A DNA stretch of 64,000 nucleotides from Pseudanabaena sp. PCC 6802 (GTDB taxonomy: Bacteria; Cyanobacteriota; Cyanobacteriia; Pseudanabaenales; Pseudanabaenaceae): positions 627,966 to 691,965 of the forward strand of contig NZ_KB235914.1 of assembly GCF_000332175.1 (NCBI RefSeq), read 5' to 3'. The translations under genes and the position numbers were made by a program. This document shows positions 18,656 to 37,600 of the stretch, piece after piece (the stretch's first letter is position 1; each line of letters opens with the position of its first letter). The notes beneath the pieces are model-generated. The model searched no databases. It was given only the letters and a program-made list of their open reading frames with translations, and was not told the DNA's origin.

Positions 18656-20389
18656 TTACGGTAGTAGCGCTTGTATTGAAGAGAGATGGTCTTGTTTGGC
18701 AGCACTGGCACAATCGAAACAAAGGGGCGGGTCGATTGTTTGGAATAGAGATTTAAATTTCAGACGAAATAGATACTTTACAGCTAACATACGCACCAGA
18801 TCCAGGAGTAAAGGTCGAATTTGAGGAACCTGTTGTTGCCACCCCAATCGTTTCATCAATTTAAACCGCATCTTCAAACGCCAGAGAAAATATCTCGACA
18901 ATTGTTGTGGAATTGAATGAATCGGGCGATCGAAGCGGCGATTGATAATCTGGTCGAAGTCAAAGGTTTGCTCGAAGTGCCTGGACTCAGCCGCTCCAAT
19001 TTGCGTTGAAGCATCTCTAAATAGATCCCAGGCAGCACGTTCGCTTTTTTCTCCACCCTGCAAAAGTCCCATCAGACCGTCGGCTCCCTGGGGATTGGTG
19101 AGAAACCCACACCACCAGAGCGGTAAAATTGCGTTCCACCAGCCGTTTAAATTCCAATATCGACGCAGATGAGCGGAAAATGGGTCGTGCATGGTGACAT
19201 ATTGATCGGTAATATCAACTTGCCGTCTTGCGGTAATTTGACACCAAAGCGAAGAGAGTGCTTCCACATCATCCATTGCTAGCGTATTAGCTAGGTCTCG
19301 TCGCACGATCTCGGTTATCTGTTGAATTTGCAACGCGGTCATGGCCAGCCCAGTGCTATAGAGTGGATCGACGGTGCGAGCGGCATTGCCAACCAAGAAC
19401 CAACCATTAGCAGAATAGACTCGATCTGCACTGTACAGATAGTTACGATAACTGTGCATATCTAAGATCTGACCGCTCCTAACCATTGCTGCAACGGCAG
19501 GATGTTCGGATTCTACGGCAGCAAGAAAATGCTCTAGAGTTTGCATAGGGCGATCGTACAAATCCGGTCGATAGGTTATCCCAACACTAATCAGATTTCT
19601 GCGATCGCTGCTTTGAAGTGGAATGCACCAAATCCAGTTAGCATGTCCCATGAAATGATGGGTAGAGTGCAAGAGGTCGTATTCATGGGGTCGCCGCATT
19701 GACAGTTCTAACTGCGGTAAAAACTCGTTAAAGTCAGCTAGCCGAAACCAGAACGCACTGCGCTGTCCTGTTTCAGGGTGGTTGTAGGTGGCGACTTTTT
19801 TGCCAATAATCCGATGGTGTCCCGTCGCATCGACGATCCATCGCGCCGATAGCTGAACGCATTCTCCGGTTGCGGTCTTCACGATCGCTTGATGATGATT
19901 TTTGCCATCACCGATGTTGACTTCCTTCACTTTTCCGTCCAGAAACTGAACGCCCATCTGAACTGCATGGTGATATAGATCGCGATCGAAGATCGGTCGG
20001 TTGAGCTGCCGAGAGTGATAGTAAAGAGATTCACCGGGGGCATGAACAGAATAACGATAGTCGTTGGGATCGTCAATCCGCAGCTTATGATAAAACGTGA
20101 GCCCATTTTTGCGATCGTGGGTGCGATCGAGATAATCCTTCAACCCAATTTCCCAGAAAAAGTGAATGCTAATTTCTGTCAGAGATTCACCAACATAAGC
20201 GCGCTTCTCCTGTTCTGGTCGAGGCCCGATCGCAAGAATATTCAGGTGAGGTAGCTTTAGTTTGAGATAGCAGGATGTCATCAATCCACTGATACTCGAT
20301 CCAACGACGATAACATCTGCCTTTATCTGTGAAATTTGAGAAACCTGAGATGAGGTTTCTGTCTCATTTTCAATCTCGTACTTCAACAT
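18656..20389 (-). CDS. FAD-dependent halogenase-like oxidoreductase
   Basis: This 577-residue protein has an N-terminal dinucleotide fold (VIVVGSSISGLMTS, about 26-38), a VGESLTE segment near 66, and near residue 253 the WxWxIP motif (WIWCIPLQ) that characterises flavin-dependent halogenases. FLVGNAARTVDPLYSTGLAM forms the second FAD site. Against a true halogenase: the first box is GSSISG rather than GGGTAG-like, and I cannot place the catalytic Lys after the GES segment. It could halogenate, epoxidise or reduce a lipid. It is the last of eight packed minus-strand genes, 42 bases after the second desaturase, with two Cys near its C-terminal end. Substrate unknown. Confidence 0.7.
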   Translation of the reverse strand: MLKYEIENETETSSQVSQISQIKADVIVVGSSISGLMTSCYLKLKLPHLNILAIGPRPEQEKRAYVGESLTEISIHFFWEIGLKDYLDRTHDRKNGLTFYHKLRIDDPNDYRYSVHAPGESLYYHSRQLNRPIFDRDLYHHAVQMGVQFLDGKVKEVNIGDGKNHHQAIVKTATGECVQLSARWIVDATGHHRIIGKKVATYNHPETGQRSAFWFRLADFNEFLPQLELSMRRPHEYDLLHSTHHFMGHANWIWCIPLQSSDRRNLISVGITYRPDLYDRPMQTLEHFLAAVESEHPAVAAMVRSGQILDMHSYRNYLYSADRVYSANGWFLVGNAARTVDPLYSTGLAMTALQIQQITEIVRRDLANTLAMDDVEALSSLWCQITARRQVDITDQYVTMHDPFSAHLRRYWNLNGWWNAILPLWWCGFLTNPQGADGLMGLLQGGEKSERAAWDLFRDASTQIGAAESRHFEQTFDFDQIINRRFDRPIHSIPQQLSRYFLWRLKMRFKLMKRLGWQQQVPQIRPLLLDLVRMLAVKYLFRLKFKSLFQTIDPPLCFDCASAAKQDHLSSIQALLP

Positions 20390-20431
20390 CGAACGTTCTC
20401 CTTTTATATTGCAAAAGTTGCGATCGCTCCA

Positions 20432-21415
20432 TTAAACAACTAATTCTTTTAAAGTTTGCCAGTAGGTGCGAGTCACATGAGCCTGTTGACGGAAGTTTTC
20501 ATCTTTCATCAGTTCAGCGTGAAGATTTGGGAGGCGATAGAAGGGAATATGAGGATAGAGGTGATGTTCGAGGTGGTAGCTAATGTGACGGGGAACGATA
20601 AAGAGTCGGTCGAACCAGGATGGCAGCGTGGTTCGGGTTAAGCAGTAAAACTCATCGGAATTGGTAATGGCACTGTGTTCTCCTGCTATTCGCAGCAGAT
20701 TGGTAAAAACGAACCAGGTGGAGAGAGGGACGAACCAGTACAACAATAAAATTTGACCGCCATGAAACCAGAGAATCAGGCCGAGGATGCTGGTATAGTA
20801 GAGCAGGTTCAATAATCGATAACGTAGTGTCCCTTTGGTGAAGAGGCGATGTATGGATCTCAGGATGTAAATGATGCCTGCAATGCCAGAGAGTCGCGGC
20901 AATACCCAAAGTGCAAAGTGGATTTTGGATTTTGGGAAATTCCAACTGGGTATTAATTCACCATCTGGTGTATGCGTGCCGTATTGGGCGCGATTCCCAT
21001 CTTTGGTAGTACCAATATGACGATGGTGCAGAAAATGATACTCGCGGAAGTATTGATTGGAAAGCAGAATCGGCCATGCCAGGAATACCTCGGCAACAAG
21101 ATCGTTCCATTTTTTGTTAGGCAAAAGTCGGAAGTGAGCGGCATCGTGTTGCAGCACCGCTAGAGCGTGTTGTCGTCCTCCAACGAACGGGATGGCGATC
21201 GCGTAAAGAAGTGGATTCCAGAAAAAATGACAAAGAGCGATCGCGCCAAAAATAGCCAGCCATTCTGAAGCGATCGCCGCTACAGTTTTCCCAACATCAA
21301 TTCGAGCCAACTCCCGCAGAATCGCTCCAGGCAGTCGCACTGTCAGGGTGCCAGCATAGATGTCGTCTCCAAACTCGGGTAGAGGTGTCGCGTGGGTTGC
21401 AGGTTGAGTAATCAT
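20432..21415 (-). CDS. Fatty acid desaturase family protein (second)
   Basis: This 327-residue membrane di-iron protein carries three His boxes: HDAAH, HHRH (YHFLHHRHIG), and HLEHHLYPH near the C-terminus. Hydrophobic pairs lie between them. The pattern is that of acyl-lipid or sphingolipid-type desaturases and related hydroxylases, acting in the membrane with ferredoxin as donor. I chose the ATG at 21415 (MITQPATHATPLPEF): it overlaps the upstream stop as ATGA and removes 54 implausible Arg/Ser-rich residues of the longer frame. Regiochemistry is unknown. It is one of two unlike desaturases in this operon. Confidence 0.85.
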   Translation of the reverse strand: MITQPATHATPLPEFGDDIYAGTLTVRLPGAILRELARIDVGKTVAAIASEWLAIFGAIALCHFFWNPLLYAIAIPFVGGRQHALAVLQHDAAHFRLLPNKKWNDLVAEVFLAWPILLSNQYFREYHFLHHRHIGTTKDGNRAQYGTHTPDGELIPSWNFPKSKIHFALWVLPRLSGIAGIIYILRSIHRLFTKGTLRYRLLNLLYYTSILGLILWFHGGQILLLYWFVPLSTWFVFTNLLRIAGEHSAITNSDEFYCLTRTTLPSWFDRLFIVPRHISYHLEHHLYPHIPFYRLPNLHAELMKDENFRQQAHVTRTYWQTLKELVV

Positions 21416-22659
21416 AATGGGTTTAGAGCTTTGACTAAACGATCTGTAAATAATTCGGGGTTTTCTAGGGGAATAAAGTGGCCGGTATCGAAGAATTCTA
21501 GAGCGACCGAGGGAGCATTTGGGAAAAACTCTTGAGCCTGCATTGGGCGATCGCAGCCAGGGATAAAAGTTCCCCAAGGTTCATATCCATCCCCAAGACC
21601 AATGCCATTGCGATCGAAAGCCCGAGATAGGAGCGTTTTGGTGCCGTTGAACGAACGGACGACTTTAAAGGCCATACCCGTCGTACCATCAAATCGCTCG
21701 GGAGGCATGGCAATATCGTGAATCCCCTGAAATAGAAATACAGGAAAGGCGTAATTTTGGTAGGCTTGCAGATTATTTTGAACGAACTGTCCGTAATCGC
21801 GATTGTGCTGGTAGAGTCCTGCCCAAGCCCCAGCAAAAATGCCGGGCTTGCCTGTTCTCGGCCCCCACTGGAAGGCATGGGATGCCTCTAGAACCGCAGA
21901 GGCTAGAACAGAATCTGGTAGAGGTTGCTTTGTCCTTTTCATTTGTCGATCCAGAACAGACCACCCAGTTCTCCCGTAAAGGATGCGCAATAAGATGCTG
22001 GGATCTGACTCCAACATCGCCGCGAACATCCTGGCTCCTCTCTTTCTGCGTAAGATTGCCCCTTGCGGGATCGACGATCTAAAGTGTCCGACTAAAGGTT
22101 GCTGACAGCGAATATAGCGCAGAATGCGATCGCTGTATTTACCAGCGAGAATATCACTAATGATGGTTCCCAGATCGAGCGCGACTAAATTGAACTGCTT
22201 GATGCCAAGCGTTTCTAATGCCGTCACGATCTCATCGGCTTGCATTTCCAAGCTATAGTCACCACCTGGATCGTTGACTTCAGGGAATAGGTTCCGAGGA
22301 TAATTCATCGACGACTGACCGCATCCTTTGAGATCGAAGGCGATCGCGTAGTAGCGATCGCTGAGAAATTCAAGCTGGTGCTGCCACAACCGCCAGGTAT
22401 CCATCAGTCCGTGCAGGAAAACGATACATTCTCGTTCCCGATCGGCTGACTCAACATAGTGAAATTTCACATCAGTAAGCTTGCCGCTAATCGTCTTTTC
22501 TATCCTGATGTACCTGTGAACGAGCGAACCACAGCAGCCGAAGGCATTCGGAACGAAATCGCCCTCAGCGTTGGCGATCGCCTGAAGGGATTTTCGATTT
22601 ATGAAGCTGAGAATCCAGCGACTGATGATATATAAAATCGCGATCGCAAATAATTTCAT
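21412..22659 (-). CDS. Alpha/beta hydrolase with Asp nucleophile
   Basis: This 415-residue protein has an N-terminal membrane anchor (about 4-20) and an alpha/beta-hydrolase fold. Landmarks are the oxyanion strand VFLHGLMDTWRLWQHQLEFL, the DLKGCGQS segment, a nucleophile elbow VALDLGT with Asp162 rather than Ser, and a late FDTGHFIPLENPELF with the catalytic His. Asp in the elbow is typical of haloalkane dehalogenases, epoxide hydrolases and OleB-type beta-lactone decarboxylases. It overlaps both neighbours by 4 bases (ATGA at each end), so it is translationally coupled to the two desaturases. Dehalogenation, epoxide opening or an OleB-like step all remain possible. Confidence 0.8.
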   Translation of the reverse strand: MKLFAIAILYIISRWILSFINRKSLQAIANAEGDFVPNAFGCCGSLVHRYIRIEKTISGKLTDVKFHYVESADRERECIVFLHGLMDTWRLWQHQLEFLSDRYYAIAFDLKGCGQSSMNYPRNLFPEVNDPGGDYSLEMQADEIVTALETLGIKQFNLVALDLGTIISDILAGKYSDRILRYIRCQQPLVGHFRSSIPQGAILRRKRGARMFAAMLESDPSILLRILYGRTGWSVLDRQMKRTKQPLPDSVLASAVLEASHAFQWGPRTGKPGIFAGAWAGLYQHNRDYGQFVQNNLQAYQNYAFPVFLFQGIHDIAMPPERFDGTTGMAFKVVRSFNGTKTLLSRAFDRNGIGLGDGYEPWGTFIPGCDRPMQAQEFFPNAPSVALEFFDTGHFIPLENPELFTDRLVKALNPL

Positions 22660-24014
22660 GGTGCATGTTTCGCCAAATAATCTTTACGATATTGATAGCG
22701 GCGATAAACCCACCGGAAGTACGTGTTGGGATTGGATGCCTGACGATAGCGTTCTTCCAGATTGAGGCGATCCCAAAAGGCAACAACGTTAGCATAGCGT
22801 TCGGCTTTCGTAGATGACCGTAGAACTCGATAATCTACCAGTAAGAGTTCGAGCATGTTTGGCGGAAACGGCGCGCCCGCAACTGTAATCATTGCAGCTA
22901 CTAATGCCAGAATGGAAAGGAAAAAGGTGACAATGTAGTCGAATAGATTTGGCGGCGGTAGTCGATCTAGCAAATTCTTATGCATGACCATACTCAACAC
23001 CGAATTGTAGCGGACATTTGTATAGCGCTCCAGAATGTGCCGATTGAGCCGCTGATAATCCTGGTTAATTAAATCCAGAGGTACTTGGGGATAGGCATGA
23101 TGAATGCCGTGATTGATAATCCCACCATTACCCAGCACGCTATATAACCACAAAGGCACTTTAAATAATCCCTGACAAGTGCGATAGTCAAAAATGCCAT
23201 TGCTCTCAAAACTATTGCGGCGATCGATGCCAGAGTGAACGATGACCGCACTCAAAATTTGCACGCCAGCTAAAACATTGAGCGGAATCAGGTGAAAAGC
23301 TAACAGGAAATAGGAACCATGAAACAGTTCCGTAACTAAAGCTGCTATATACGCGTAGAATCCAATGATTTCGATCGCTAACTTCCGTCGATTAATCATT
23401 TCCTGCTGGCAAAACTGCCGATCGCGCAGAAATTTGAGCAAAATCCAGGGACGCACGAAATAGTTGACGGGGATCTGGTCGAACGTCAGCCAAACCTCGG
23501 AAAAGATCCGCGAGACGTTGCCAATATCGTTATAGTGGGCGGCACAGTGGCGACGCTTAAACAAGGCGGGAGAAATTCCCGTGAGCGGCAACCCAAAGCG
23601 ATCGACGCTCGTATCTATCCAGCCAACTCCTGTGAGATTGCTGGGAGAATGCGCCCGCATGTGCATGACTTCTCCCTTTTGCACGACAAATAGAGCGGCA
23701 ATAAATAAAGGAATTCCCCACCCAAAGGCGTATTGGGGAAAGTTTGCGTGCAGGTAAAGATAGCAAACTAATAGAGCGAGGTATCCTGCGATAAACTGAG
23801 CTAGATCTTTGCGCTCGATCGCTTGGAAATCTTTGCGAGAATAACGACTGTGGATGTCTTTTTTGAACCATTTCATGAAGTCCATGAATTGCTCGTCAAA
23901 CATCTCTTGCTTGTTGAGACGTTGGTGCGATTGAAAGTCTTGATAGTCGTCAAAATCCTTGTAGACAGAAGGCTGTTTAGGCTCAGATAGTTTAGACTCA
24001 GATAGTTTAGACAT
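22656..24014 (-). CDS. Fatty acid desaturase/hydroxylase family protein (first)
   Basis: A 452-residue membrane protein with the di-iron His boxes HMRAH (118-122), HCAAH (156-160) and a later HGIHHAYPQ. Hydrophobic segments near 72-112, 215-255 and 360-380 would span the membrane. It is only distantly like the second desaturase and has a long C-terminal extension after the last box (WDRLNLEERYRQASNPNTYF). The reaction could be desaturation or hydroxylation. The N-terminus contains a short tandem duplication (SKLSESKLSEP). It lies 55 bases after the sulfotransferase gene and overlaps the hydrolase gene by 4 bases. Confidence 0.8.
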   Translation of the reverse strand: MSKLSESKLSEPKQPSVYKDFDDYQDFQSHQRLNKQEMFDEQFMDFMKWFKKDIHSRYSRKDFQAIERKDLAQFIAGYLALLVCYLYLHANFPQYAFGWGIPLFIAALFVVQKGEVMHMRAHSPSNLTGVGWIDTSVDRFGLPLTGISPALFKRRHCAAHYNDIGNVSRIFSEVWLTFDQIPVNYFVRPWILLKFLRDRQFCQQEMINRRKLAIEIIGFYAYIAALVTELFHGSYFLLAFHLIPLNVLAGVQILSAVIVHSGIDRRNSFESNGIFDYRTCQGLFKVPLWLYSVLGNGGIINHGIHHAYPQVPLDLINQDYQRLNRHILERYTNVRYNSVLSMVMHKNLLDRLPPPNLFDYIVTFFLSILALVAAMITVAGAPFPPNMLELLLVDYRVLRSSTKAERYANVVAFWDRLNLEERYRQASNPNTYFRWVYRRYQYRKDYLAKHAP

Positions 24015-24069
24015 TAGTATGCTCCAAATTGCAATAACTTCAATTGTCGATCGGTAAATTTTTCCTCCT

Positions 24070-25209
24070 TTAAATTTGCTCGCCTAGAGTATTGGCATAG
24101 CCAAGTTTTTGAAAAGCAAATGCCCAGCGACGATCTATGAGTTCTCGCTCCTGGGCAGATAGCTGAAACTGATTTTTCTGATAAGCCCGTTGCGAGGAAA
24201 TATAAGATGCAAATGCTGGTAATGCCTCGTTAAAACCTGGCAAGCCAAGTTCCTTGTAAACAAGCTGTAAGACTTGTAGCGGATCGCGCTCTAGATCTGC
24301 AAAGCTTACTTCAACGATCTGACCGGATGGGATCGAGGGGCGATCGCGAAAGAACTGCTGCATCATATCTTCATACAGTTCGAGGATCGTGCGATCGACA
24401 TTGGTTGGATCGATAGACTGCAGCGTCGTTAAGGACAGTAAACTATGACGGAGACTGCGCGTGGAGGCAAAGACATCGTAGGGACAACGGTGAATGTGGA
24501 TAAATTTTGCCCCTGGGAACAACTCCAACAGCAAACGAATCCTGGCAGTGTTGACTGGATTTTTTAAGACGAGTTGCTTCCCATGCGCGTGAATAGTGGC
24601 AATTTGGAGCAGTCGGTAATACTTGCGTTTAAACTCCCGAATAAATGACTCAGAGGCACCCTGCAATAACACGAACTGCTTAAAGAGGTTTAGCGTTCTG
24701 TGGGGAAATAGAAACTGGGTATAAAAGGAATGGGGCATGGTCTTCGCCAGGGGAATTTCTTCCTCTTGGGGAGAATCAATCGGCCAAGTCATATTATCCA
24801 TCGGTCGTTTGAGCGGTACGATTTTTGATAACAAAGATTTGAGCCAAATTCCGCCCACTAGCGAGCAATCGGGAACCATTGACTGATACATAGACAGATA
24901 GCCAAATGCTGGATCCTGAGCGATCAGATTGTGCAGGTGTGTCGTACCGCTGCGCCAATGGCCGATAATAAAGATTGGGGGGTGCGCAATGGTGGTGTTG
25001 ATAATCCGCTGCTCCCACACAATCTTTTCCCACAGGCGCAGAGGCAAGGTACAGATACTTGTAATCGAAATTAGCAGCAGGCGTAACGCATAGCGGGGAT
25101 GAATCCCGATCGCATAGTGGGTTAGCCGCAGGATGTTACTCAGTCGCGTAAATCCGATTAATCCGATTTGATAACCGAGTTGACTGTTCGTGAATGGGTT
25201 TGCGTTCAT
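24070..25209 (-). CDS. Sulfotransferase family protein
   Basis: This 379-residue protein has the PAPS-binding 5'-phosphosulfate loop HPPIFIIGHWRSGTTHLHNLI and a downstream FIHIHRCPYDVFASTRSLRHSL segment that fits the 3'-phosphate site. The C-terminal part has VEVSFADLERDPLQVL, common in bacterial sulfotransferases. It would move sulfate from PAPS to a hydroxyl. In this operon the acceptor may be a hydroxylated fatty chain made by the AlkB-like enzyme (inference). The N-terminal region has one amphipathic or hydrophobic helix (about 45-60). It starts 6 bases after the SDR gene, so the two are tightly linked. Confidence 0.87.
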   Translation of the reverse strand: MNANPFTNSQLGYQIGLIGFTRLSNILRLTHYAIGIHPRYALRLLLISITSICTLPLRLWEKIVWEQRIINTTIAHPPIFIIGHWRSGTTHLHNLIAQDPAFGYLSMYQSMVPDCSLVGGIWLKSLLSKIVPLKRPMDNMTWPIDSPQEEEIPLAKTMPHSFYTQFLFPHRTLNLFKQFVLLQGASESFIREFKRKYYRLLQIATIHAHGKQLVLKNPVNTARIRLLLELFPGAKFIHIHRCPYDVFASTRSLRHSLLSLTTLQSIDPTNVDRTILELYEDMMQQFFRDRPSIPSGQIVEVSFADLERDPLQVLQLVYKELGLPGFNEALPAFASYISSQRAYQKNQFQLSAQERELIDRRWAFAFQKLGYANTLGEQI

Positions 25210-25215
25210 GGCGTG

Positions 25216-25995
25216 CTATCTATCAATTACGATTGGACGTGGGAACCACCGTTCGGCGACGTAATTTAAAATAGAGCCTCGAACGACGTTAGGCAGAATG
25301 TTCAGCATGTTTAAGAAGTGATAAGACCAGTAGGGGAAGCAGTAAAAGCGCCGTCGCTGCTCGATCGCTCGCACAATTTTGGCGATCGCAACTTCCCGCT
25401 GCATGCACAGATGAGCGGGCACCTGTTCCTTGACAGTCATGTCTGTATCGATAAAGCTGGGGCAAATAGTGGTGACGTGAATGCCATGCGGCTTTAAGTC
25501 CCTGTACAGCCCCTCTAATAGATAATTCAGAGCTACTTTGGAGGCACTATAAGCACTAATTCGAGGCATAGCGTGCAAGGCCGCCATACTGGAAATCCCG
25601 ACGATTTGACCGCGACCTCGTAATAGCATGGCATCAATTACAGGAGCGATGGTATTGGCAACCCCCATGACATTGGTTTTCACGATCTGTTCAAAACGGT
25701 CGAGATCGAATTTAGCCTCCAGGTTTTGCGCAGTAATCCCAGCGTTGGCGATCGCTAGCTCGATTGGCCCCAGGTCTTTTTCAGCCATCGCCACAACATC
25801 GGCGATCGCCTGTTTTTGGGTAACATCGGCGGCGTAAATTTTCAGATGTCCGTAGCGACATTGCGGTTCTTGATAAAGAGCCTGAAGTTTTGTCTCGCGA
25901 CGGGCGATCGCCGCAACGCTACAGCCATGTTTGAGATAGTGCAGCGTCAGTGCATATCCAATCCCAGATGAGGCTCCTGTAATTAACACGTTCAT
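25216..25995 (-). CDS. Short-chain dehydrogenase/reductase
   Basis: This 259-residue SDR shows the cofactor loop TGASSGIGYAL, NAGI in the expected strand, catalytic Ser in VGISSMAAL and YSASK as the Tyr-x3-Lys pair. The absence of an acidic residue after the second strand but AIARRETK there suggests NADP(H). C-terminal YCFPYWSYHFLNMLNILPNVV is hydrophobic, as in lipid-active SDRs. It may reduce a beta-keto product of the KASIII-like enzyme or oxidise an alcohol. Its ATG overlaps the AlkB-like stop by 4 bases, and the sulfotransferase follows after 6. Confidence 0.9.
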   Translation of the reverse strand: MNVLITGASSGIGYALTLHYLKHGCSVAAIARRETKLQALYQEPQCRYGHLKIYAADVTQKQAIADVVAMAEKDLGPIELAIANAGITAQNLEAKFDLDRFEQIVKTNVMGVANTIAPVIDAMLLRGRGQIVGISSMAALHAMPRISAYSASKVALNYLLEGLYRDLKPHGIHVTTICPSFIDTDMTVKEQVPAHLCMQREVAIAKIVRAIEQRRRFYCFPYWSYHFLNMLNILPNVVRGSILNYVAERWFPRPIVIDR

Positions 25996-27110
25996 GGGGA
26001 AATTTCCTGCTGAGCTTCAAATTGTTCCAGACAAGGATGGACGACTCGCTGAAACACAGGTGGTATCAATGCTAGAAAAAACATCGCGACATGTTGGTAT
26101 GGGTATACTGGCGATCGGTTCTCGCTCCTTAAGTAGGGATAGGGACAATTGGGGGCAGCATGATGCTCCCCGTGGCGAAACAGATTCAAGAGTGCGAAGT
26201 CATGGATAAATAGAGCCTGCGACCAGGCATGATGGGTGCCAACTGGCTCGTATTTGCCTGAAGCATCAACGGTTCGCATCAAACCATAATGTTGGATGTA
26301 ATTCGTCCAATCGAGTTTCAAGATAGCGATCGCGCTTTGCAAAATAAAAAATACCCCCCCTTTCCCCCCCCACAGCCAAACCGTCAGGGACAACCAGAGC
26401 AGGCTAAAGCCATACCAGATTAGCAACTCGCTTTGCCAAAAAGACTTACCCGCTTTGGCGAGGCACTCTCGTTCGCAGCGGAGCGCCCCGCTAAAATTAC
26501 CGACAAGGCTCTGCCACCAAAAACTATAGAGACTTTGCCCCCGTCGGGCGGTAGCAAAATCTAGAGGGGTGCCAACATGGCAATGATGAATCTGGAGATG
26601 GACGACTTTGAACGTGCCAAAGCTAACGGTTGAGAGTAACAGCCCACCCAGAAATCGGTCGAATTGCTGAGGCCGATGGATTAATTCATGCCCTAGGGTG
26701 ATGGCGAAAATCCCGCTCAAAACCCCTGTTGATAATAGATAGCCCAGACTCCCCCAACCATTCAAGCTGCTACCGCACCAGTAATGCGTCGTAACCGCCA
26801 GCATCGCCAGTTGGGCGGGCACTCCTCCAAACAGCAGCAAGCGGAAATAGAGCGGCGATCGCTTTGGGATCGCGGCGGCATCAAACCGAGCGGGTACCGG
26901 ATAGGGCCAGAGCCATTGGAGAAAGGCAACAAGACCATAGGCGATCGCGAGCGGTGCAAAGGCGAACAAATTGGGACGAGCGCTTACTTCTCCGAGCCAG
27001 GCACTCAAAATCGGTAGAGCCGGAATCGCATAGGCGAGCAAATATCCCAGGCTACTCAAAATTGGAAAGCGATTATCTTGGGGATTCGTTCCGCCACTAT
27101 TCTGAGTCAT
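25992..27110 (-). CDS. AlkB-like membrane di-iron monooxygenase
   Basis: This 372-residue membrane protein has the alkane-hydroxylase pattern: HELIHR (His141, His145), HLQIHHCHVGT (171-178), NYIQHYGLMR (His274), and FRHGEHHAAPNCPYPYLR (His313, 316, 317). Six or so hydrophobic segments fit the AlkB/xylene-monooxygenase fold. It would hydroxylate a terminal or methyl position of a long chain, using rubredoxin or ferredoxin; no rubredoxin gene is next to it. The coding strand has a G8-A3-G7 run (window 26354-26371) around residues 248-252, a possible slippage site. It lies 18 bases after the KASIII-like gene and overlaps the SDR gene. Confidence 0.88.
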   Translation of the reverse strand: MTQNSGGTNPQDNRFPILSSLGYLLAYAIPALPILSAWLGEVSARPNLFAFAPLAIAYGLVAFLQWLWPYPVPARFDAAAIPKRSPLYFRLLLFGGVPAQLAMLAVTTHYWCGSSLNGWGSLGYLLSTGVLSGIFAITLGHELIHRPQQFDRFLGGLLLSTVSFGTFKVVHLQIHHCHVGTPLDFATARRGQSLYSFWWQSLVGNFSGALRCERECLAKAGKSFWQSELLIWYGFSLLWLSLTVWLWGGKGGVFFILQSAIAILKLDWTNYIQHYGLMRTVDASGKYEPVGTHHAWSQALFIHDFALLNLFRHGEHHAAPNCPYPYLRSENRSPVYPYQHVAMFFLALIPPVFQRVVHPCLEQFEAQQEISP

Positions 27111-27128
27111 AATCCACTTCTCTCAACT

Positions 27129-28166
27129 TCAATACGTCAACTGGACAACCGAAGCAACCAGTCCGGCACTAACAGGCACAAATGCAATAGAATCTCCTCT
27201 CCGAAGTACCCCTTCATCTTCGGCAAGACAAAGTCCTACCGGAATGCTTGCTGAAACCACGTTGCCAAATTCTGGGTAAACCTTCAAGTAGACTTTCTCA
27301 ATCGGGACTCCATATGTGGGCATGTATTCTTCATAAATTGCCTTGGAAGGGGTATGGGGAAAGTACCAAACCGGATGGCTGACATCGTCGATCGACTCAG
27401 CAATGACTTTCCCTAAGGATTTACTGCCTTCACGAAAGAGATCTCTACCATAGGATACAAATCGATTAATGCCATTCAGTTCCATGCGATCGCTTGCTTC
27501 CACAAAGTTAGCATAGCCAGGAAGCGGTATCGTACAGAGATCGGCGAACTCGGGTCTCGATAGATAGGAAAAGTTCCAGGGGCGATCGCTGGGTAACAGA
27601 ATCGTGGCTGTTGCTGCCTCGCCAATGGTGTACATCGGAAACGAATATTCCAGAGCGCGGATATCGCGGATTTCCCAGTTATCGTGCAGCCCTAAATGGA
27701 ATTCTCCATTCACGATCATTGCGGCTTTGAACGCACCCGACTGCAACATTAAACCTGCGATGTGAGCCGCCCGCACCCAACTCATGCAGGCATCCGTAAC
27801 ATCAAAACAGTTAGCCAGATGCATCCCCTTCGCCTTGGCATAAAAATAGGCATTGGCAGGCTCTAAAAAACCGCGCCCCACGCCGCAATAAATCAATAAA
27901 TCGATATCTGTTGGAGCCATGTTCGCTTTCTCTAAAGCACCATCGATTGCTGAAAAAATCGAGTCTGATGCCTTCTCCCCCGCCTCAATATCGCGAAGAT
28001 ACCGAGTTTTCGCTCCTGTTTGACTTAACAACTTTTCAACGATTTTGAGGTATGGAGCTTTCTTAATGGGGGAAACTTTAGGGTTGCTCCGCTCCATATA
28101 ATCCAGCAGATCGCTATTGGTTAATTTTTGAGAAGGTACGCGGTAAGATATAGAAGCGATTTTCAT
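27129..28166 (-). CDS. KASIII (FabH/OleA-like) condensing enzyme
   Basis: This 345-residue thiolase-fold enzyme carries the KASIII triad: Cys127 in DACMSW, His271 in FPHTPSKA and Asn302 in EFGNVVSASIP. The YCGVGRGFLEPANAYF and YTIGEAATATIL stretches mark a FabH-like group apart from housekeeping FabH. It would condense an acyl thioester with malonyl-ACP or a second acyl-CoA, starting the pathway. As first gene of the eight-gene operon it lies behind a 496-base region containing two TGA(T/C)AAATGTCA sites and a palindromic repeat. No acyl carrier protein or acyl ligase is encoded nearby, so these must come from elsewhere. Confidence 0.88.
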   Translation of the reverse strand: MKIASISYRVPSQKLTNSDLLDYMERSNPKVSPIKKAPYLKIVEKLLSQTGAKTRYLRDIEAGEKASDSIFSAIDGALEKANMAPTDIDLLIYCGVGRGFLEPANAYFYAKAKGMHLANCFDVTDACMSWVRAAHIAGLMLQSGAFKAAMIVNGEFHLGLHDNWEIRDIRALEYSFPMYTIGEAATATILLPSDRPWNFSYLSRPEFADLCTIPLPGYANFVEASDRMELNGINRFVSYGRDLFREGSKSLGKVIAESIDDVSHPVWYFPHTPSKAIYEEYMPTYGVPIEKVYLKVYPEFGNVVSASIPVGLCLAEDEGVLRRGDSIAFVPVSAGLVASVVQLTY

Positions 28167-28299
28167 GGTTTAGGCGTTCCAGTTGAATATGGAGCTCAGA
28201 TTCAGAACGCAAATCCTCTAAACTCGCGCTCTGGCATCTTAAGAGCACCTCTAAAAACTCAAAATTATTGAGAGTATAGATTTCGCAATCAAGTTTTTA

Positions 28300-28413
28300 A
28301 TACCAATTTAAATGGTTAGCTTCCCAGATCGGGGTGTGAGGATCTTGCCCCCAGAAAGGGGTGGGAACCTTTCACTTCGCTCGATCTGTCCCGTCGATAG
28401 TGCAAATTGGTAT
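28300..28413. repeat. Palindromic repeat upstream of lipid operon (family D)
   Basis: The 114-bp element has ends ATACCAATTTAAA and CAAATTGGTAT, and an inner TTGCCCCCAGAAAGGGG stretch. The right end recurs in the composite repeat at 10274-10377 and as a lone CAAATTGGTATAG at 45876-45888. It lies within the gene-free region 28167-28662, between divergent genes. Confidence 0.55.
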
Positions 28414-28496
28414 AACTCCATGCTATTAAGCATAAGGCAATTGTTCGAGATGCTCTATAAATTGTAGACTAACTTAATGAAGAGTTAAACGTCATC

Positions 28497-28531
28497 TGAT
28501 AAATGTCACTACCTGCACGTGACAAATGTCA
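28497..28531. promoter_or_regulatory. Paired TGA(T/C)AAATGTCA sites (candidate operators)
   Basis: TGATAAATGTCA (28497-28508) and TGACAAATGTCA (28520-28531) are spaced 23 bp centre to centre, about two helical turns. The second is a palindrome. They lie between the divergent lipid operon and DUF6916 genes, 132 bases before the latter. Similar AAATGTCATG dyads occur at 40641-40676. Confidence 0.5.
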
Positions 28532-28662
28532 TCAGCGTTCGCAAATAGTTTGTAAATAAGGGGTGTAGTGGCTTTACCCCAGCCAGGTTTACATTCTTAA
28601 ATGCAGCTAGATATTCGCAATCTTTAGTTGCGATCGACACTAAGAAAAAGAAGGAGACTACC

Positions 28663-29761: not shown

Positions 29762-30289
29762 TCAGGTGCGAGGTGGATATACTCCCTGTAAGGCAATGCA
29801 GAAATAGAAGGTTAAGTAGGGCTGCATGTTATTGTGCGGTGCGTCGCCGCCGGATGGGGCGAGAGCGGAATCTGACATTGGCTGCAAGCCAGAGGATATT
29901 GAATTCTGGTACAAAAAGCCATTTGCCGACCGTGCCAACACGCGGTTAGATGTGGGAGCTTTTAGATCGCCATCGTCCGAAGAGGCCATTAAGGAATGGC
30001 TGTGAGATGGTATCTCCGACTCCAACAGCGTTACTGTTTCGGAGCCTCCAGTTTCGCCCAGATCGTGCAACGAAAGCCCTGGCCCTTGTCCTGGGTGCAT
30101 GGGAGCGCGTCCTTGTAAATCGGGTAGACCAAAATTCGATTTACCATTTCCTCCGTAGGTAGTTCCCAACAACGAAAACAGCGCCGTGTTCTGGGACAGC
30201 GGCAATAACTGACCATCGCACCACGCCCAGCCTTTGGGTGGAAAGTTAAATGGGAAAATTCTGATCTCAGCCACAAATGGGTCGGCCAT
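29762..30289 (-). CDS. Phage-tail-collar (MdpB-like) protein 3
   Basis: A 175-residue protein. The N-terminal tail-collar domain has VAEIRIFPFNFPPKGWAWCDGQLLPLSQN and ALFSLLGTTYGGNGKSNFGLPDLQGR. The middle (about 85-150) is variable, with SHSHSLMAS, and the end is NMQPYLTFYFCIALQGVYPP. The family (COG4675) includes the microcystin-dependent protein MdpB; in phages this domain forms trimeric fibre tips that bind receptors. Three paralogues stand in a row, with no phage structural genes, so a host surface role is likelier than a prophage. It is 55 bases after collar protein 2. Confidence 0.88.
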   Translation of the reverse strand: MADPFVAEIRIFPFNFPPKGWAWCDGQLLPLSQNTALFSLLGTTYGGNGKSNFGLPDLQGRAPMHPGQGPGLSLHDLGETGGSETVTLLESEIPSHSHSLMASSDDGDLKAPTSNRVLARSANGFLYQNSISSGLQPMSDSALAPSGGDAPHNNMQPYLTFYFCIALQGVYPPRT

Positions 30290-30344
30290 ATTTATTCTCC
30301 TAAATACTGAAATCTAAAAGCTGAAAGCTAAATACTCCTCTCAA

Positions 30345-30848
30345 TCATGTCGGGCTTGGGAAAATCCCCAATAGAGAAATGATGAAGTCAACGCAGAGAT
30401 AGGGTTGAAAATTGGTGTGTGGCTGGCTACCACCGATCGCTGACACCACTGCTGAATTCATATTGCTGTTGGCGGTGTCTTCAATAAAGGGACTAATCGC
30501 TACCGACTCAGCTAAGAGGTTTTTGCTCGGGGTTGCGAGGGTTGCCGCTGAGGTGGATGCCAACAGAGGGTGACTATGAGATGGAATCTGACTTACCGTC
30601 AACGCAATCTCTTCGGCTCCCCCTGTCTCCGCCAGGATAAAACCGTTGCCCATGTGTACGGGCAAGCGACCGCGCAAATCGGGTAAAGCAAAGTTAGATT
30701 GACCGTCACCGCCATAGGTCGTACCGATCAATTGGAAGAGGGCTTCGTTTTCCGCAATCGATATTAGTTGTCCCTCGCAGAACATCCACCCCGCAGGGGC
30801 GAAGTTGCCCGCGAACATGCGAATTTCGCCAATATAAGGCTGTGCCAT
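30345..30848 (-). CDS. Phage-tail-collar (MdpB-like) protein 2
   Basis: A 167-residue paralogue of its neighbours. It shares IGEIRMFAGNFAPAGWMFCEGQLISIAEN, LFQLIGTTYGGDGQSNFALPDLRGR, LTVSQIPSHSHPLLAS and the C-terminal FQPYLCVDFIISLLGIFP. The central variable stretch (about 95-145) differs from the other two, as expected if each copy forms a different tip. The paired His of SHSH may bind a metal in the trimer. It starts 9 bases after collar protein 1, so these two are co-translated. Confidence 0.88.
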   Translation of the reverse strand: MAQPYIGEIRMFAGNFAPAGWMFCEGQLISIAENEALFQLIGTTYGGDGQSNFALPDLRGRLPVHMGNGFILAETGGAEEIALTVSQIPSHSHPLLASTSAATLATPSKNLLAESVAISPFIEDTANSNMNSAVVSAIGGSQPHTNFQPYLCVDFIISLLGIFPSPT

Positions 30849-30857
30849 AGATGTCTC

Positions 30858-31355
30858 CTAGTTTGGACTTGGGAAAATGCCCTGGAGGGCGATTGAGAAG
30901 TTTAAGGTTAGAAAAGGCTGCATGTTAAGATGTGCCTGCGACCCTCCAACGTTGGCGATCGCGCTAGGACTAAGCGAAGTCAAATTTGTGGGAGGATTGT
31001 AAACATTGTTGGCAGCAGCCAAAATATTACCAACCGCGACCGGAACGTTTGCATTTGAGGGCGATCCCGACAAAACGTGGGTATGGGTGGGAATCTCGGT
31101 GATCGAGAGGGTGTGTGCTTGTTCGCCGCCCCGTTCGCCAAGCGTGTGACTGCCGCCAACATGAATCGGTGTCCGGGCGCGCAAGTCGGGCAACGCAAAG
31201 TTCACGCGCCCATCGCCGCCGAAGGTCGTTCCGAGCAATGAGAAGAGACCCTGATTCTGATTGATGGGCAAAAGCTGTCCATCGCAGAGCGCCCACCCCC
31301 TCGGGGCGAAGCCAAAGCTCATGATGCGGATTTCTGAAAGGAAAGGTTCGGCCAT
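30858..31355 (-). CDS. Phage-tail-collar (MdpB-like) protein 1
   Basis: A 165-residue paralogue: LSEIRIMSFGFAPRGWALCDGQLLPINQN, LFSLLGTTFGGDGRVNFALPDLRAR, ITEIPTHTHVLSGS and NMQPFLTLNFSIALQGIFP. It is the first collar gene, 248 bases after the stop of the 2821-residue surface protein on the same strand. No signal peptide is visible, so export, if any, would need a dedicated route. The three proteins may form a heterotrimer or separate homotrimers; sequence cannot tell. Confidence 0.88.
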   Translation of the reverse strand: MAEPFLSEIRIMSFGFAPRGWALCDGQLLPINQNQGLFSLLGTTFGGDGRVNFALPDLRARTPIHVGGSHTLGERGGEQAHTLSITEIPTHTHVLSGSPSNANVPVAVGNILAAANNVYNPPTNLTSLSPSAIANVGGSQAHLNMQPFLTLNFSIALQGIFPSPN

Positions 31356-31603: not shown

Positions 31604-34600
31604 CTAGAACGGAGTCGGTGTCGGCACCGTACCGCCGAAAAAGCCGTCCGTCGTTACTGTTGCGGAATCGTTTGCCGTGGCGCTGCCAGGTTCACCTGCA
31701 CTGCCAGTGTTGCGACCCTGAATATAGGTAACCACGGCTGCAGTGTCAAAGGGAGTTCCTGAGTAACCGGGCATCTCGATGCGCGAGTTAAAGCGTTGGC
31801 GGATGCGGAAGTCGTCGGTCGTGCCGGCACTATTCGTGAGTGTATTGGCAAGCGCTCCAGCCCCGCCGAAGTTGAGACGAACGGTATGGCTATCGACCGC
31901 ACCAAAGACGTTGGTCGTAGTTGATGCATTATTTAGGAAGAATGATTGGAGGGATAACGGATTGGTTGAAACCGACTGATCGAGATCGTTGCTTTGCACT
32001 GTCAGATTGAGGACGCCGTTGCCGTCGTTCGCCTGGACGGAAATCCCACGTTCTAAGGCATTGATAACAGTGTTGCCCGTAACTGACGAGGTGTGAGTGC
32101 CGTTGCCGTGGGCTTCAACGACGATCCCGCTCGCTTGGGTTGAACCGGAAAGCGGCGTGCCTGCCGTGCCAATGTTGTTGTTACGGATGAAGCCATTGAA
32201 CGTCCCGGCAGCACCTGAGGTGCCGAGATTGGCCGTAATCGCACTCAGAATTGCTCCGTTAATCGTGTTGCTGTCGATATCGTAGTTGACCCGCCCGGTG
32301 TAGCCACCGAACGCCACGCCAGTAGCTGCGTTGATCGTGATGCCCTGCCCAAGTGCGGTGGGATGACCGCCGGAGAGTGTATTATTGGTGAATTTCACGT
32401 TGAGATTTGCCGAATTGCTGGCAGCGGCCTGGAAGTGGTCGCCTCGATTGGCGGTAAACGTGTTGCCAGTGAGGGTTGCCGTCATGGTGGCAGTTCCAGA
32501 CGCATCCATCAGGAAGCCGTCGTTACCGATCGCCGAGTTGTTGCTGAAGGTACTACCAGTTACGGTGAGGTTGGTCAGCGTGCCGCTGGAATTGCGGATG
32601 ACGGCGTTGTCCTCCGCCGAGCCACTGACGGTAATGCCCGACCAGGTCGAGGTACCGAACAGGTTGGTCAGATCGATACCTGCCTCGCCAGCGGCATTGC
32701 CGTTGTTCGTTACTCGCACGCCCGTAAGCGAGAGTCCGGTAACCGTCGTACCGCGAATACCGTCATCTCCACCGCCTGAAATGTTCATGTTGGAGAGATT
32801 GACATTTGCCGTATTGGTAAGCAAAATGCCCGCGTCCGTTGAGTTTTGAATTGTGCCGCCCGATCCAGCCGTCGAACCGGTGCCCGTGACGGTTAATCCA
32901 CCACTCGTACCCGTGTTGTTGAGTACGATGCCGTTAGTGGCTCCATTAGAACTGATGCTGCGGAAGTTCAGGTTACTCGCGCCAATTGTGGTGTTCGCGA
33001 CATTGAGGGCTGTGCCGGTGGTGGAAGTAATTGTATTCGTGCCAGTAGCCGATACTGTACCGCCACCCGTGGCGTTGAAGCCCACACCGCTAGTCGTGTT
33101 GAGCGTCAATCCACCCGTGAAGTTGACCGTGCCGCCTGTGTTGGTCAGGTCGATCGCATTGGCAGTCGTCGTCGTGCCAGTAATCTGACCGTTAAACGTT
33201 GTGGTGCCTCCGGTCTTTGCATTGATATTGACGGCATTATTGGCATTGTTGGTCTTAGTAATTGTGCCGTTATAGGTCACGTTTGCCGTGCTCGTATCTT
33301 CGTTGTAAGCGATGCCAGATGGGTTATTGATGGATGTATTCGCGCTGAATGCAAACGTTCCGCCCGAACCACCGATGATATCGATTCCCGCATCGCCGCC
33401 ATTCAGCGTCGCGGTGCCGTTGAAATTGTACGTACCGTCGGCGTTGTTGAACTGCAATCCCGTACCGTTGGTCGCGTTAATCGTTCCCGTTTGGAACGTA
33501 GCAGTTCCCGTGTGACCTCCAGATACGGAGACCGCTGCGGCATTGTTTGCCTGGGTAATGTTGCCAGAATAGGTAGTATTTACGCTGCCGCCATTGATAT
33601 TGAAGGCTGCACCCGTGGGGCTGGTAATAGTACCGCCATTGGCAGTAAACGTACCCGAGCTACCGACCAGATTGACACCATTCGTACCGCCGCTAGAAGA
33701 GAGACTGCCCAGAACGACATTCAAAGCACCGGAAGTACCGACATTGAAACCGCCACCCGTGGTGTTATTGATGATGGCCTCGCTAATTGTCAGGTTGCCG
33801 ACTGCGCCACCAGTAATGCTAAATCCACTGGCATTGCCCGCATTTAGCCCCCGCAGCGTATTGTTTGAACCCAGGGTAATTCCTCCAGCGATGTTGGGTC
33901 TGTTACCCGAGAACGCATCCAGACTGTTAAAGCTGCCCAGCGTAATGCCAGTAAGCGCTGCCAGCGTAGTACCTGTTGTGCCGTCGCCAATCAGTTTCTG
34001 ATCGTTTCGCAGCGTAATCCCACCTGCATAGGTACCCGCGCCATCAGCATTTGCATTGGTGGCATCGTCATCGATAAAGATAAAATCGGTGTTTGCAGGG
34101 AGATTGCCAACACCAGTATTTGCCGCATTAAAGGCTGCCAAAGTCCTGAATGGATCGGCCTGAGTGCCTAAATTAGCCGAATCAATGGCATCCTCATCGA
34201 TGAACCACAACACGCTGTTCCCAGCACCAGCACCATCGAGATCGGTGACGTTAATCGTTGCGGTTATATTTGCCGTCGCAGGAGGCAGAGGCGTACCGCT
34301 ATCCTGAATTTGATAGACAAACGTATCGCTGCCAACAAAGCCAGCTACAGCATTATAGGTAAAGCTACCATCAGCATTCACCGTCACGTTGTTATCGTCC
34401 GCAGTTGTTGCCGTGGCTGCCGCTGCTGCACTTGTCAGCGTAGCTGCCACCACACTCACCGTTGTGCCATCGGGGTCTGTCGCTCCCGTCAGCAGATCGC
34501 TCGCACCATCAGGGACAGTCAGGGTCAAGTTAGCATTGCTGGTATAAGTCGGAGCGGGGGTGAGGGCAGGCGGATCGTTGACGGGTTGCACGTTAATATC

Positions 34601-37600
34601 CCGCGTTACCGTATTGCTGTTGACATCGCCATCATTCACCGTGTAGCTGACCGTGCGCGTAGCAGTATTGGGGTTATCGCTGGTGTTGGTGTAGGCAATT
34701 TGGTGCAAAGCCGTCGAGTAGTTGGCGAGCGATGCCGACCCCGTAAGGGTTATCGTACCTGGCACGGAAGTATTGGCGACAATCCCACCTGGAAGAGCGC
34801 CGACTACCGAGAGGACATCCTGTCCAGCCACGAACCCACTCGTAATACTAATCGTGGCACTTTCTGCGTTTGGCTCGTCGTCTGTAATCCCCAATCCGGT
34901 AGGACTGATTATTGTTTGCGTTTGCTCGTTAATCGTAATGGCACCCACAGCAGCCGCGCCCAAAACTGGTGGTGCGTTGACAACTCCGGTAATCGCGAAG
35001 TTGTAGGGGTTCTCATTGCTGTCGTTGTTCGGAATGGTGATGTCGCCGCCAAACGTACCAGAGGCAGCAGCAGTTAGCTGTACCGTTATTGTGGTGCTAG
35101 CTCCCGGCGTTACCGTTGCAGATGGCAATGTCGTAATTGTGTAACCAGTTGGTACGGTAATGCTGCCGGTTGTGAGATTGAGCGGAGCTGAACCAGTATT
35201 CTCAATTGTGAAGGTGCGGGACACGGTAGCACCAACGTTAGTTCTGCCATAGTCGGTGCCATCGGTTGTACTCGGCGTGGTATCGCCATCGGCAATGTTG
35301 TCAGTCGTACCGCCAAAGCCGCCATCGGTGACGTTAATCTCTGGCGCGACAACGCTACCAGTAATGGCAAAGTTATAGGGATTCTCATCGCTGTCGTCGT
35401 TCGGAATTGAGATATCCCCAGCAAACGTACCGGCAGTTGCAGCGGTGAGCTGTACGCCAATTGTGGTGCTGCCTCCTGGTGCTACTGTTGCGGCTGGCGT
35501 GGTGGTAATCGTGTAACCAGCGGGTACGGTGATGCTACCAGTCGTGAGGTTGAGGGTGCCTGTACCCGTGTTCTCAATCGTAAACGTGCGAGTTACAGCA
35601 GTACCAACTGGAGTACTGCCATAGTCGGTGCCGTCTGTAGTACTCGGCGTGGCATCGCCATCTGCAATGTTGTCAGTTGTACCGCCAAAGCCACCATCCG
35701 TGACGTTAATCTCCGGCGCAGTAACCGTACCTGTAATGGCAAAGTTGTAAGGATTCTCATCGCTGTCGTTGTTCGGGATGACGATGTCGCCAGCAAACGT
35801 ACCAAGGGCACCAGCAGTAAGCTGTACCGTAATCGTGGTACTGGCTCCTGGTGCTACGGTGGCGGCTGGTGTACTTGTAATCATGTAACCCGTGGGAACG
35901 GTAATACTACCCGTTGTGAGATTGAGCGTAGCCGTACCAGTGTTCGCGATCGCAAAGGTGCGACTCACGGCTGTACCCAGCAAAGTCGTACCGTAATCGG
36001 TACCGTCGGTCGTACTTGGTGTGGTGTCGCCATCCGCGATACTGTCAGTTGCTCCACCAAAGCCACCATCGGTGACATTGATTTCCGGAGCGGTAACAAT
36101 GCCTGCGATCGCGAAGTTGTAGGGATTCTCGTCGCTGTCGTTGTTGCCAAAGCTGATTTCACCGTTAAAGGTACCTGGTGTTGTGGCATCCAGTTGAACG
36201 GTAAAGGCAGCGTTACTTCCTGCTGCAATACTGGTTGGGAATGCGCCGACCAAACTGAAACCCGTTGGTAAGGTGGGTGCGCCTAGAGTTAATGCTGCTG
36301 TACCGAGATTTTCAATCGTAAACGTTTGAGTCAGGGCTGTTCCAACTGTGGTCGTACCGTAATCAGTGCGATCGTCAACGCTCGGCGTGGTATCGCCATC
36401 GAGAATGCTGGTAGGACGACCGTTAATATCGTCAACAGTGACATTAATCTCTGGAGCGACAACGCTGCCAGTAATGGCAAAGTTGTAGGGGTTTTCATTG
36501 CTGTCGTCGTTTGGAATTGAGATATCGCCCGCAAACGTGCCGACGGTGGTGGCGGTAAGCTGTACCTCGATTGTGGTGCTGGCTCCTGGTGCTACTGTTG
36601 CCGATGGCAGGGTGGCGATCGTATAGCCAGTTGGTACGGTAATGCTACCAGTCGTGAGGTTGAGGTTGGCGGTGCCGGTGTTCTCAATTGTAAAGGTGCG
36701 GGTTAGGGCAGTGCCAAGGGGAGTGGAGCCATAGTCGGTGCCGTCGGTTGTGCTCGGTGTGGTGTCGCCATCGAGGATGTTGTCGGTCGTACCACCAAAG
36801 CCGCCATCGTTAACGTTAATTTCTGGAGCAATTACAGTGCCCGTAATCGCAAAGTTGTAGGGGTTCTCGTCACTGTCATCGTTCGGGATCGCGATATCGC
36901 CCGCAAACGTGCCAGCAGCAGTAGCTGTAAGCTGTACTTCAATTGTGGTGCTGGCTCCTGGTGCTACAGTTGCCGATGGCAGGGTCGCAATCGTATAGCC
37001 AGCAGGCACGGTAATGCTGCCAGTCGTGAGGTTGAGATCGGACGTGCCAGTATTCGCGATCGTAAAGGTGCGAGTTATAGCAGTACCGAGGGGAGTGGAA
37101 CCATAGTCGGTGCCATCGGTGGTGCTTGGCGTGGTGTCGCCGTCAGTAATATTGTCGGTTGTGCCGCCGAAACCGCCATCGGTGACGTTAATCTCTGGGG
37201 CGGTAACGGTACCTGTAATGGCAAAGTTGTAAGGATTCTCATCGCTGTCGTCGTTCGGAATTGAGATATCCCCAGCAAACGTACCGGCAGTTGCAGCGGT
37301 GAGCTGTACGCCAATTGTGGTGCTGCCTCCTGGTGCTACCGTTGCAGATGGTGTAGTGGTAATCGTGTAACCAGCGGGTACGGTGATGCTGCCAGTGGTG
37401 AGATTGAGATCGGACGTACCAGTGTTCGCGATCGCAAACGTGCGGGTCACCGCCGTGCCGACCAGGGTGCTGCCATAGTCGGTGCCGTCCGTAGCGCTCG
37501 GCGTGGTATCGCCATCGGCGATGCTGTCAGTTGTACCGCCAAACCCACCATCAGTCACGTCGATCTCTGGTGCGGTAACCGTGCCTGTAATGGCAAAGTT

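Follow-up and report, generated by a model that had tools for sequence, protein, structure and literature searches.

Here we describe an eight-gene operon of Pseudanabaena sp. PCC 6802 that may be a horizontally mobile secondary-metabolite cassette for a sulfated, oxidised long-chain lipid, a reading to which we give a probability of about 0.5. The operon lies at positions 18656 to 28166 of a 64,000-nucleotide stretch of DNA (the window, whose positions serve as coordinates throughout) from a host genome of 5.62 Mb that is 99.7% complete. The enzyme families and their motifs were observed, and we infer the chemistry from them: the most likely product would be a sulfated, oxidised, long-chain secondary alcohol or hydroxy-lipid, with roughly even odds that the end product carries the sulfate. 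All eight open reading frames (ORFs) are on the minus strand, the beta-ketoacyl synthase being the first gene (28166) and a flavoprotein the last (18656):

28167-28662, minus strand: non-coding region of about 500 bp upstream of KAS, likely promoter region
27129-28166, minus strand: KAS, OleA-like beta-ketoacyl synthase III, 345 aa; E102, C127, H271 and N302 correspond to OleA E117, C143, H285 and N315
25992-27110, minus strand: AlkB-family membrane di-iron monooxygenase, 372 aa; HELIH, HxxIHH, QHYG and RHGEHHA boxes
25216-25995, minus strand: classical short-chain dehydrogenase/reductase (SDR), 259 aa; TGASSGIG and YSASK
24070-25209, minus strand: sulfotransferase (ST, Sulfotransfer_3), 379 aa; WRSGTT, binding 3'-phosphoadenosine-5'-phosphosulfate (PAPS)
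22656-24014, minus strand: Des1, membrane di-iron enzyme of the FA_desaturase superfamily, 452 aa; His boxes at 118, 156 and 302
21412-22659, minus strand: ABH, alpha/beta hydrolase of the epoxide hydrolase / haloalkane dehalogenase / OleB superfamily, 415 aa; hydrophobic N-terminus, Asp162 nucleophile, His394
20432-21415, minus strand: Des2, membrane di-iron enzyme of the FA_desaturase superfamily, 327 aa from the ATG at 21415
18656-20389, minus strand: FAD, PltA/CmlS-like flavoprotein, 577 aa; WIWCIP at 252, Lys in RKNGLTF (93-99), TVDPLYSTG (339-347)

A first-pass annotation of this DNA had proposed eight genes on one strand with gaps of 55 bases or less and three 4-base overlaps, and the ORF list with the computed gaps confirms it. 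The distances are 18 bases between KAS and AlkB, -4 between AlkB and SDR, 6 between SDR and ST, 55 between ST and Des1, -4 between Des1 and ABH, -4 between ABH and Des2, and 42 between Des2 and FAD. The overlap between ABH and Des2, the third, depends on placing the start of Des2 at the ATG at 21415 and not at the upstream TTG at 21577, a choice supported by the matching Met that opens the Des2 homologue of a Richelia genome (L013, introduced below). Pfam recognises KASIII (ACP_syn_III domains), SDR, Sulfotransfer_3, alpha/beta hydrolase, Trp_halogenase/FAD_binding_3 and three times FA_desaturase, one of these being AlkB. Promoter-like matches were no commoner than expected by chance, and a terminator scan was uninformative, as the terminator-like sites that it found lie inside genes.

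The same genes occur together in four other cyanobacterial genomes, which bears out the earlier proposal of one operon; homologues that never cluster would have spoken against it. These are Thermosynechococcaceae MS004 (G296), a metagenome-assembled genome (MAG) whose cluster is split over two short contigs (L011 and L047), a Chroococcidiopsidaceae MAG (L012), the MAG Richelia sp. CSU_2_1 (L013), and G426 (L067). Close relatives in MS004 (L011), L012 and L013 came from 84,980 species genomes, and the G426 cluster from a search of relatives. Among 386 sampled cyanobacterial genomes, close homologues of KAS are found in Pseudanabaena and MS004 only, and ABH in the same two, always with the cluster; the cluster KAS is absent from 56 of the 58 relatives searched, including every other member of the host's family. 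The order KAS-AlkB-SDR is kept in all five genomes, with ST next in the four whose sequence extends far enough. The L013 cluster retains the neighbourhood but not the gene order: there the first four genes face a group on the other strand made up of the flavoprotein, Des2, the hydrolase and one additional gene. Pseudanabaena and MS004 are members of different families. Synonymous sites have reached saturation in their TypA genes (pS 0.78), whereas the seven comparable operon genes have synonymous divergences (dS) of 0.48-0.81. Their ratios of nonsynonymous to synonymous divergence (dN/dS) range from 0.09 to 0.20, and all seven are under purifying selection. Alignable DNA ends at 28180, 14 bp upstream of KAS, and at 18684, some 30 bases away from the flavoprotein gene's end. 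Since homology stops at the operon edges and dS is low against the saturated TypA, the operon has probably moved between cyanobacteria horizontally as one unit, which fits a discrete functional cassette.

Regarding the pathway, the catalytic residues observed in KAS suggest that it would join two fatty-acyl thioesters head to head into a beta-keto acid, which may be retained or decarboxylated to a mid-chain ketone. The SDR would then reduce the ketone to a secondary alcohol, and ST, by virtue of its PAPS motif, may transfer sulfate from PAPS to this alcohol or to an alcohol produced by an oxygenase. From their folds and motifs, AlkB and the two further membrane di-iron enzymes may introduce hydroxyl groups, double bonds or epoxides into the chains, and the hydrolase with its Asp nucleophile could open an epoxide, halide or lactone. 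Finally, the flavoprotein, judging by its family, may halogenate or hydroxylate an activated carbon, for instance the alpha carbon of the keto intermediate; in two of the sister clusters a halogen would be added at an unactivated carbon by a SyrB2-type iron/2-oxoglutarate (Fe/2OG) enzyme.

The evidence for the individual tailoring enzymes is uneven. AlkB is a true relative of its namesake, as first annotated, with a profile match of 9e-60 to solved alkane 1-monooxygenases, the His boxes and the HYG motif. Likewise, the sulfotransferase has the canonical PAPS loop WRSGTT, invariant in four homologues, and its similarity to the polyketide-synthase sulfotransferase structure 4gox_A is very weak (E 0.026). 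The SDR is classical (adh_short 7e-50, 259 aa). OleD is an extended SDR, and by this comparison ours is not of the OleD type. Of the two desaturases annotated at first, what stands is the superfamily given by Pfam; desaturation is not implied by that name, and Des1 and Des2 could equally be hydroxylases. Neither gave a match in profile searches against solved structures, and the best NCBIfam match of Des2 is an arginine hydroxylase, far below its cut-off. In ABH, the Asp of the nucleophile elbow (Asp162) is present in both aligned sequences that reach that site. ABH also has His394, and its nearest solved relatives are epoxide hydrolases. An AlphaFold model made from three sequences is too poor to use (mean predicted local distance difference test, pLDDT, 36), so that epoxide hydrolase, dehalogenase and OleB all remain as readings of this protein.

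Whether the lipid is also halogenated has to be weighed separately for the strain and for its relatives. The flavoprotein is the sole candidate halogenase of the Pseudanabaena operon. Its best structural relatives by sequence are PltA and CmlS, it has the WxWxIP motif (W252IWCIP), whose role in flavin-dependent halogenases is documented (PMC12871659), and its Lys in RKNGLTF is aligned to a Lys of PltA. In place of the expected FxxPxxSxG it reads TVDPLYSTG, with F replaced, and in place of GxGxxG it reads GSSISG; its C-terminal 220 residues or so have no match in PltA. From these motifs, it may halogenate an activated carbon, for instance next to a ketone, or hydroxylate. More distant flavoprotein relatives (about 30% identity) were not counted, as they are tandem copies beside polyketide synthase (PKS)-type genes; such pairs or triples adjoin these genes at L051:4326-9807, L052:7662-11564 and L053:9291-13212. 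A different candidate was found as a ninth gene in two sister clusters (proteins P0003 and P0004):

L012, 6954-8183: PhyH-family protein inside the sister cluster
L013, 18956-20155: PhyH-family protein inside the sister cluster

Both proteins find SyrB2 as their best PDB match (1e-29), followed by CytC3, with about 300 residues aligned, and both have HQA at the metal site, aligned with the HQA of SyrB2 and CytC3. The replacement of the metal-binding carboxylate by Ala or Gly (HXG/A) is an accepted mark of halogenases in the Fe/2OG family (PMC12871659). The best NCBIfam model is TIGR01762, 'chlorinating enzyme', at 149-152 bits, below its cut-off of 226. This ninth gene supports a halogenated lipid family, and the product of L012 and L013 would probably be halogenated. 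For the Pseudanabaena strain, where halogenation would depend on the flavoprotein, we consider it doubtful. The link to halogenation first suggested for this operon is thus strengthened by the SyrB2-type gene of two sister clusters; in the strain itself, the flavoprotein motifs agree in part and no such Fe/2OG halogenase was found in the genome.

A variant of the proposed pathway, whose probability overlaps with it, is that the oxidised sulfated lipid carries no halogen in any lineage, the flavoprotein and the PhyH protein being hydroxylases. This is possible rather than probable: the halogenase motifs of the flavoprotein are incomplete, no Fe/2OG halogenase gene was found in three of the five cluster genomes (Pseudanabaena, MS004 and G426), and related PhyH proteins in L020, L024, L025 and L026 have HQE or HQV where the sister proteins have HQA, HQV being the motif of neither a usual hydroxylase nor a usual halogenase. 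However, HQA is the exact motif of SyrB2 and CytC3, SyrB2 is the best structural match, and HxG/A serves as a halogenation criterion (PMC12871659). Another SyrB2-type HQA protein was seen at L048:7035-10783, adjoining homologues of the guanitoxin enzymes GntB and GntC and a nonribosomal peptide synthetase-like gene, and this locus suggests a halogenated arginine-derived natural product.

The first step depends on whether KAS is of the OleA or the FabH kind. In the latter case it would start or extend a chain from malonyl-ACP, and the product would be a sulfated hydroxy fatty acid or a short polyketide. The KASIII fold and the ACP_syn_III domains are compatible with this, and the predicted fold (pLDDT 75) ties between the two, with Z of 30.1 against OleA and 29.5 against FabH; the argument thus rests on residues, not on the fold. 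The best PDB match of KAS by sequence is Xanthomonas OleA. In a 17-sequence alignment its C127, H271 and N302 fall on the catalytic Cys/His/Asn triad of OleA, and E102 in FLEP falls on Glu117 in YLEP of XcOleA (printed chain position 103 plus 14, the same offset as in the triad). Glu117 is key to condensing two acyl-CoAs, according to the title of a work cited in PMC7064751. Its equivalent is kept in all 14 KAS family members examined and missing from the host genome's own FabH, and neither a dedicated carrier protein nor any other PKS component is encoded in the operon, which makes a FabH-like role unlikely. The earlier assignment of an OleA-like KASIII is borne out by these four residues, which point to head-to-head joining of two acyl chains. 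The best KASIII model in NCBIfam, PRK09258, which we take to be the OleA model, gives KAS 112.5 bits, below its cut-off of 285, and none of 14 control genomes passes it either.

More distant KAS relatives, at about 40% identity in Nostocales (L014-L018) and 38% on a Paraburkholderia plasmid (L061), were not counted as the same pathway given their other neighbouring genes. The Nostocales neighbourhood, alike in the three loci with ORFs listed (L014, L008 and L010), includes a fatty-acyl-AMP ligase, a protein resembling oxygenases and a protein of 872 residues that looks like an AarF-kinase/aminotransferase fusion; together with L015-L018 it is perhaps another undescribed lipid pathway. The Pseudanabaena genome also has a second, diverged KASIII (L064, C5:4476804-4477871), in a 648-residue ORF with an extra, unexplained C-terminal half.

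The main rival to the proposed mechanism takes the sulfate as a transient leaving group. KAS and SDR would make a beta-hydroxy acid, ST would sulfate its beta-hydroxyl in the place of OleC, and loss of sulfate would give a beta-lactone, or an olefin via decarboxylation, with the OleB-like hydrolase acting next. It would be an Ole pathway in which sulfation replaces OleC, as in the sulfotransferase-thioesterase step of the cyanobacterial olefin synthase (Ols). Both CurM and cyanobacterial Ols are known to sulfate first and decarboxylate afterwards, a subject on which papers have been published (for example PMC3903477). The OleA residues of KAS and the adjacent Asp-nucleophile hydrolase are in line with this rival, and so is the absence of an AMP-ligase from the operon and from the large ORFs of the window. 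On the other hand, the sulfotransferase is not close to the polyketide type, the SDR is not OleD-type, and hydrocarbon formation leaves several oxygenase-type enzymes and the halogenases unexplained, which together make this an improbable account. That the genes are adjacent by chance or serve ordinary housekeeping lipid metabolism, for which the promoter scan could be cited, we reject as very remote, since a set with a KAS missing from most relatives recurs in distant families, once reshuffled, and is conserved in four other genomes with its genes under purifying selection.

Several observations weigh against a sulfated, oxidised lipid made by a transferred cassette. The order of the steps, every reaction and the product were read from the genes. 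KAS is 26% identical to XcOleA, and the fold search cannot separate OleA from FabH. The flavoprotein has neither a strict GxGxxG nor the F of FxxPxxSxG, and the genomes of Pseudanabaena and MS004 have no Fe/2OG halogenase. A search of the L013 genome did not recover Des1, and therefore the steps are not all universal. The comparators are all MAGs or short contigs, where a binning error could mimic transfer.

The gene set is rare, and a cluster with the same genes was not found described in the literature searched. If our reading is true, the operon offers a compact, defined system to test the bacterial synthesis of sulfated and chlorinated lipids, chemically known from algae. It would then also show an OleA-type condensation that leads into a route lacking OleC, as well as a SyrB2-type halogenase at work in a lipid operon that has no carrier protein. 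HctB is the only fatty-acid-acting member listed for the SyrB2-type halogenase family in a 2026 preprint (PMC12871659). More tentatively, these clusters might constitute a bacterial, horizontally spread route to chlorosulfolipid-like molecules, combining OleA-type joining, sulfation and, in some lineages, SyrB2-type chlorination without a dedicated carrier protein. We think this rather unlikely; it would open the sulfated halogenated lipids of cyanobacteria to study at the gene level for the first time.

Elsewhere in the window, positions 31604-40069 encode a protein of 2821 residues that contains many near-identical 'EINVTDGGFGGTTD' repeats and, at the N-terminal end, RTX-like repeats; it is adjoined by three similar tail-collar-like proteins of about 170 residues (29762-31355).

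Compared with known systems, the operon shares with OleABCD the four-residue set of its KAS, an alpha/beta hydrolase that like OleB has an Asp nucleophile, and an SDR, and differs in its sulfotransferase, three membrane di-iron enzymes and flavoprotein, and in the classical type of the SDR. In a search that did not take in the whole genome, neither the operon nor the large window ORFs scanned yielded an OleC. Because of this and of the SDR, the operon as tested is not, on its gene content, an OleABCD pathway; of the points on Ole raised in the first-pass annotation, the likeness of KAS to OleA and the missing OleC hold, and the likeness of the SDR to OleD does not. As with the sulfotransferase-thioesterase of Ols and CurM, a lipid-like hydroxyl would be sulfated in the vicinity of a hydrolase, and the operon differs in a stand-alone Sulfotransfer_3 enzyme with no modular PKS. 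The flavoprotein resembles PltA and CmlS in WxWxIP and differs in its imperfect FxxPxxSxG and GxGxxG. P0003 and P0004, which align with SyrB2 and CytC3, differ from them in about 80 extra N-terminal residues with a hydrophobic stretch and in belonging to a lipid operon that encodes no carrier protein; they are not part of the Pseudanabaena window. An unrelated cyanobacterial cluster combines a CylC halogenase, of a different type, with a sulfotransferase and a P450 (Eusebio et al., PMC8406957). For the algal chlorosulfolipids danicalipin, malhamensilipin and mytilipin, no biosynthetic genes were found described in the literature searched, so the comparison cannot be made at the gene level. The Pseudanabaena strain differs from them in having no Fe/2OG halogenase, and the operon is known here from its genes; the features held in common would be the long chain and the sulfated alcohol and, in the sister clusters, aliphatic halogenation.

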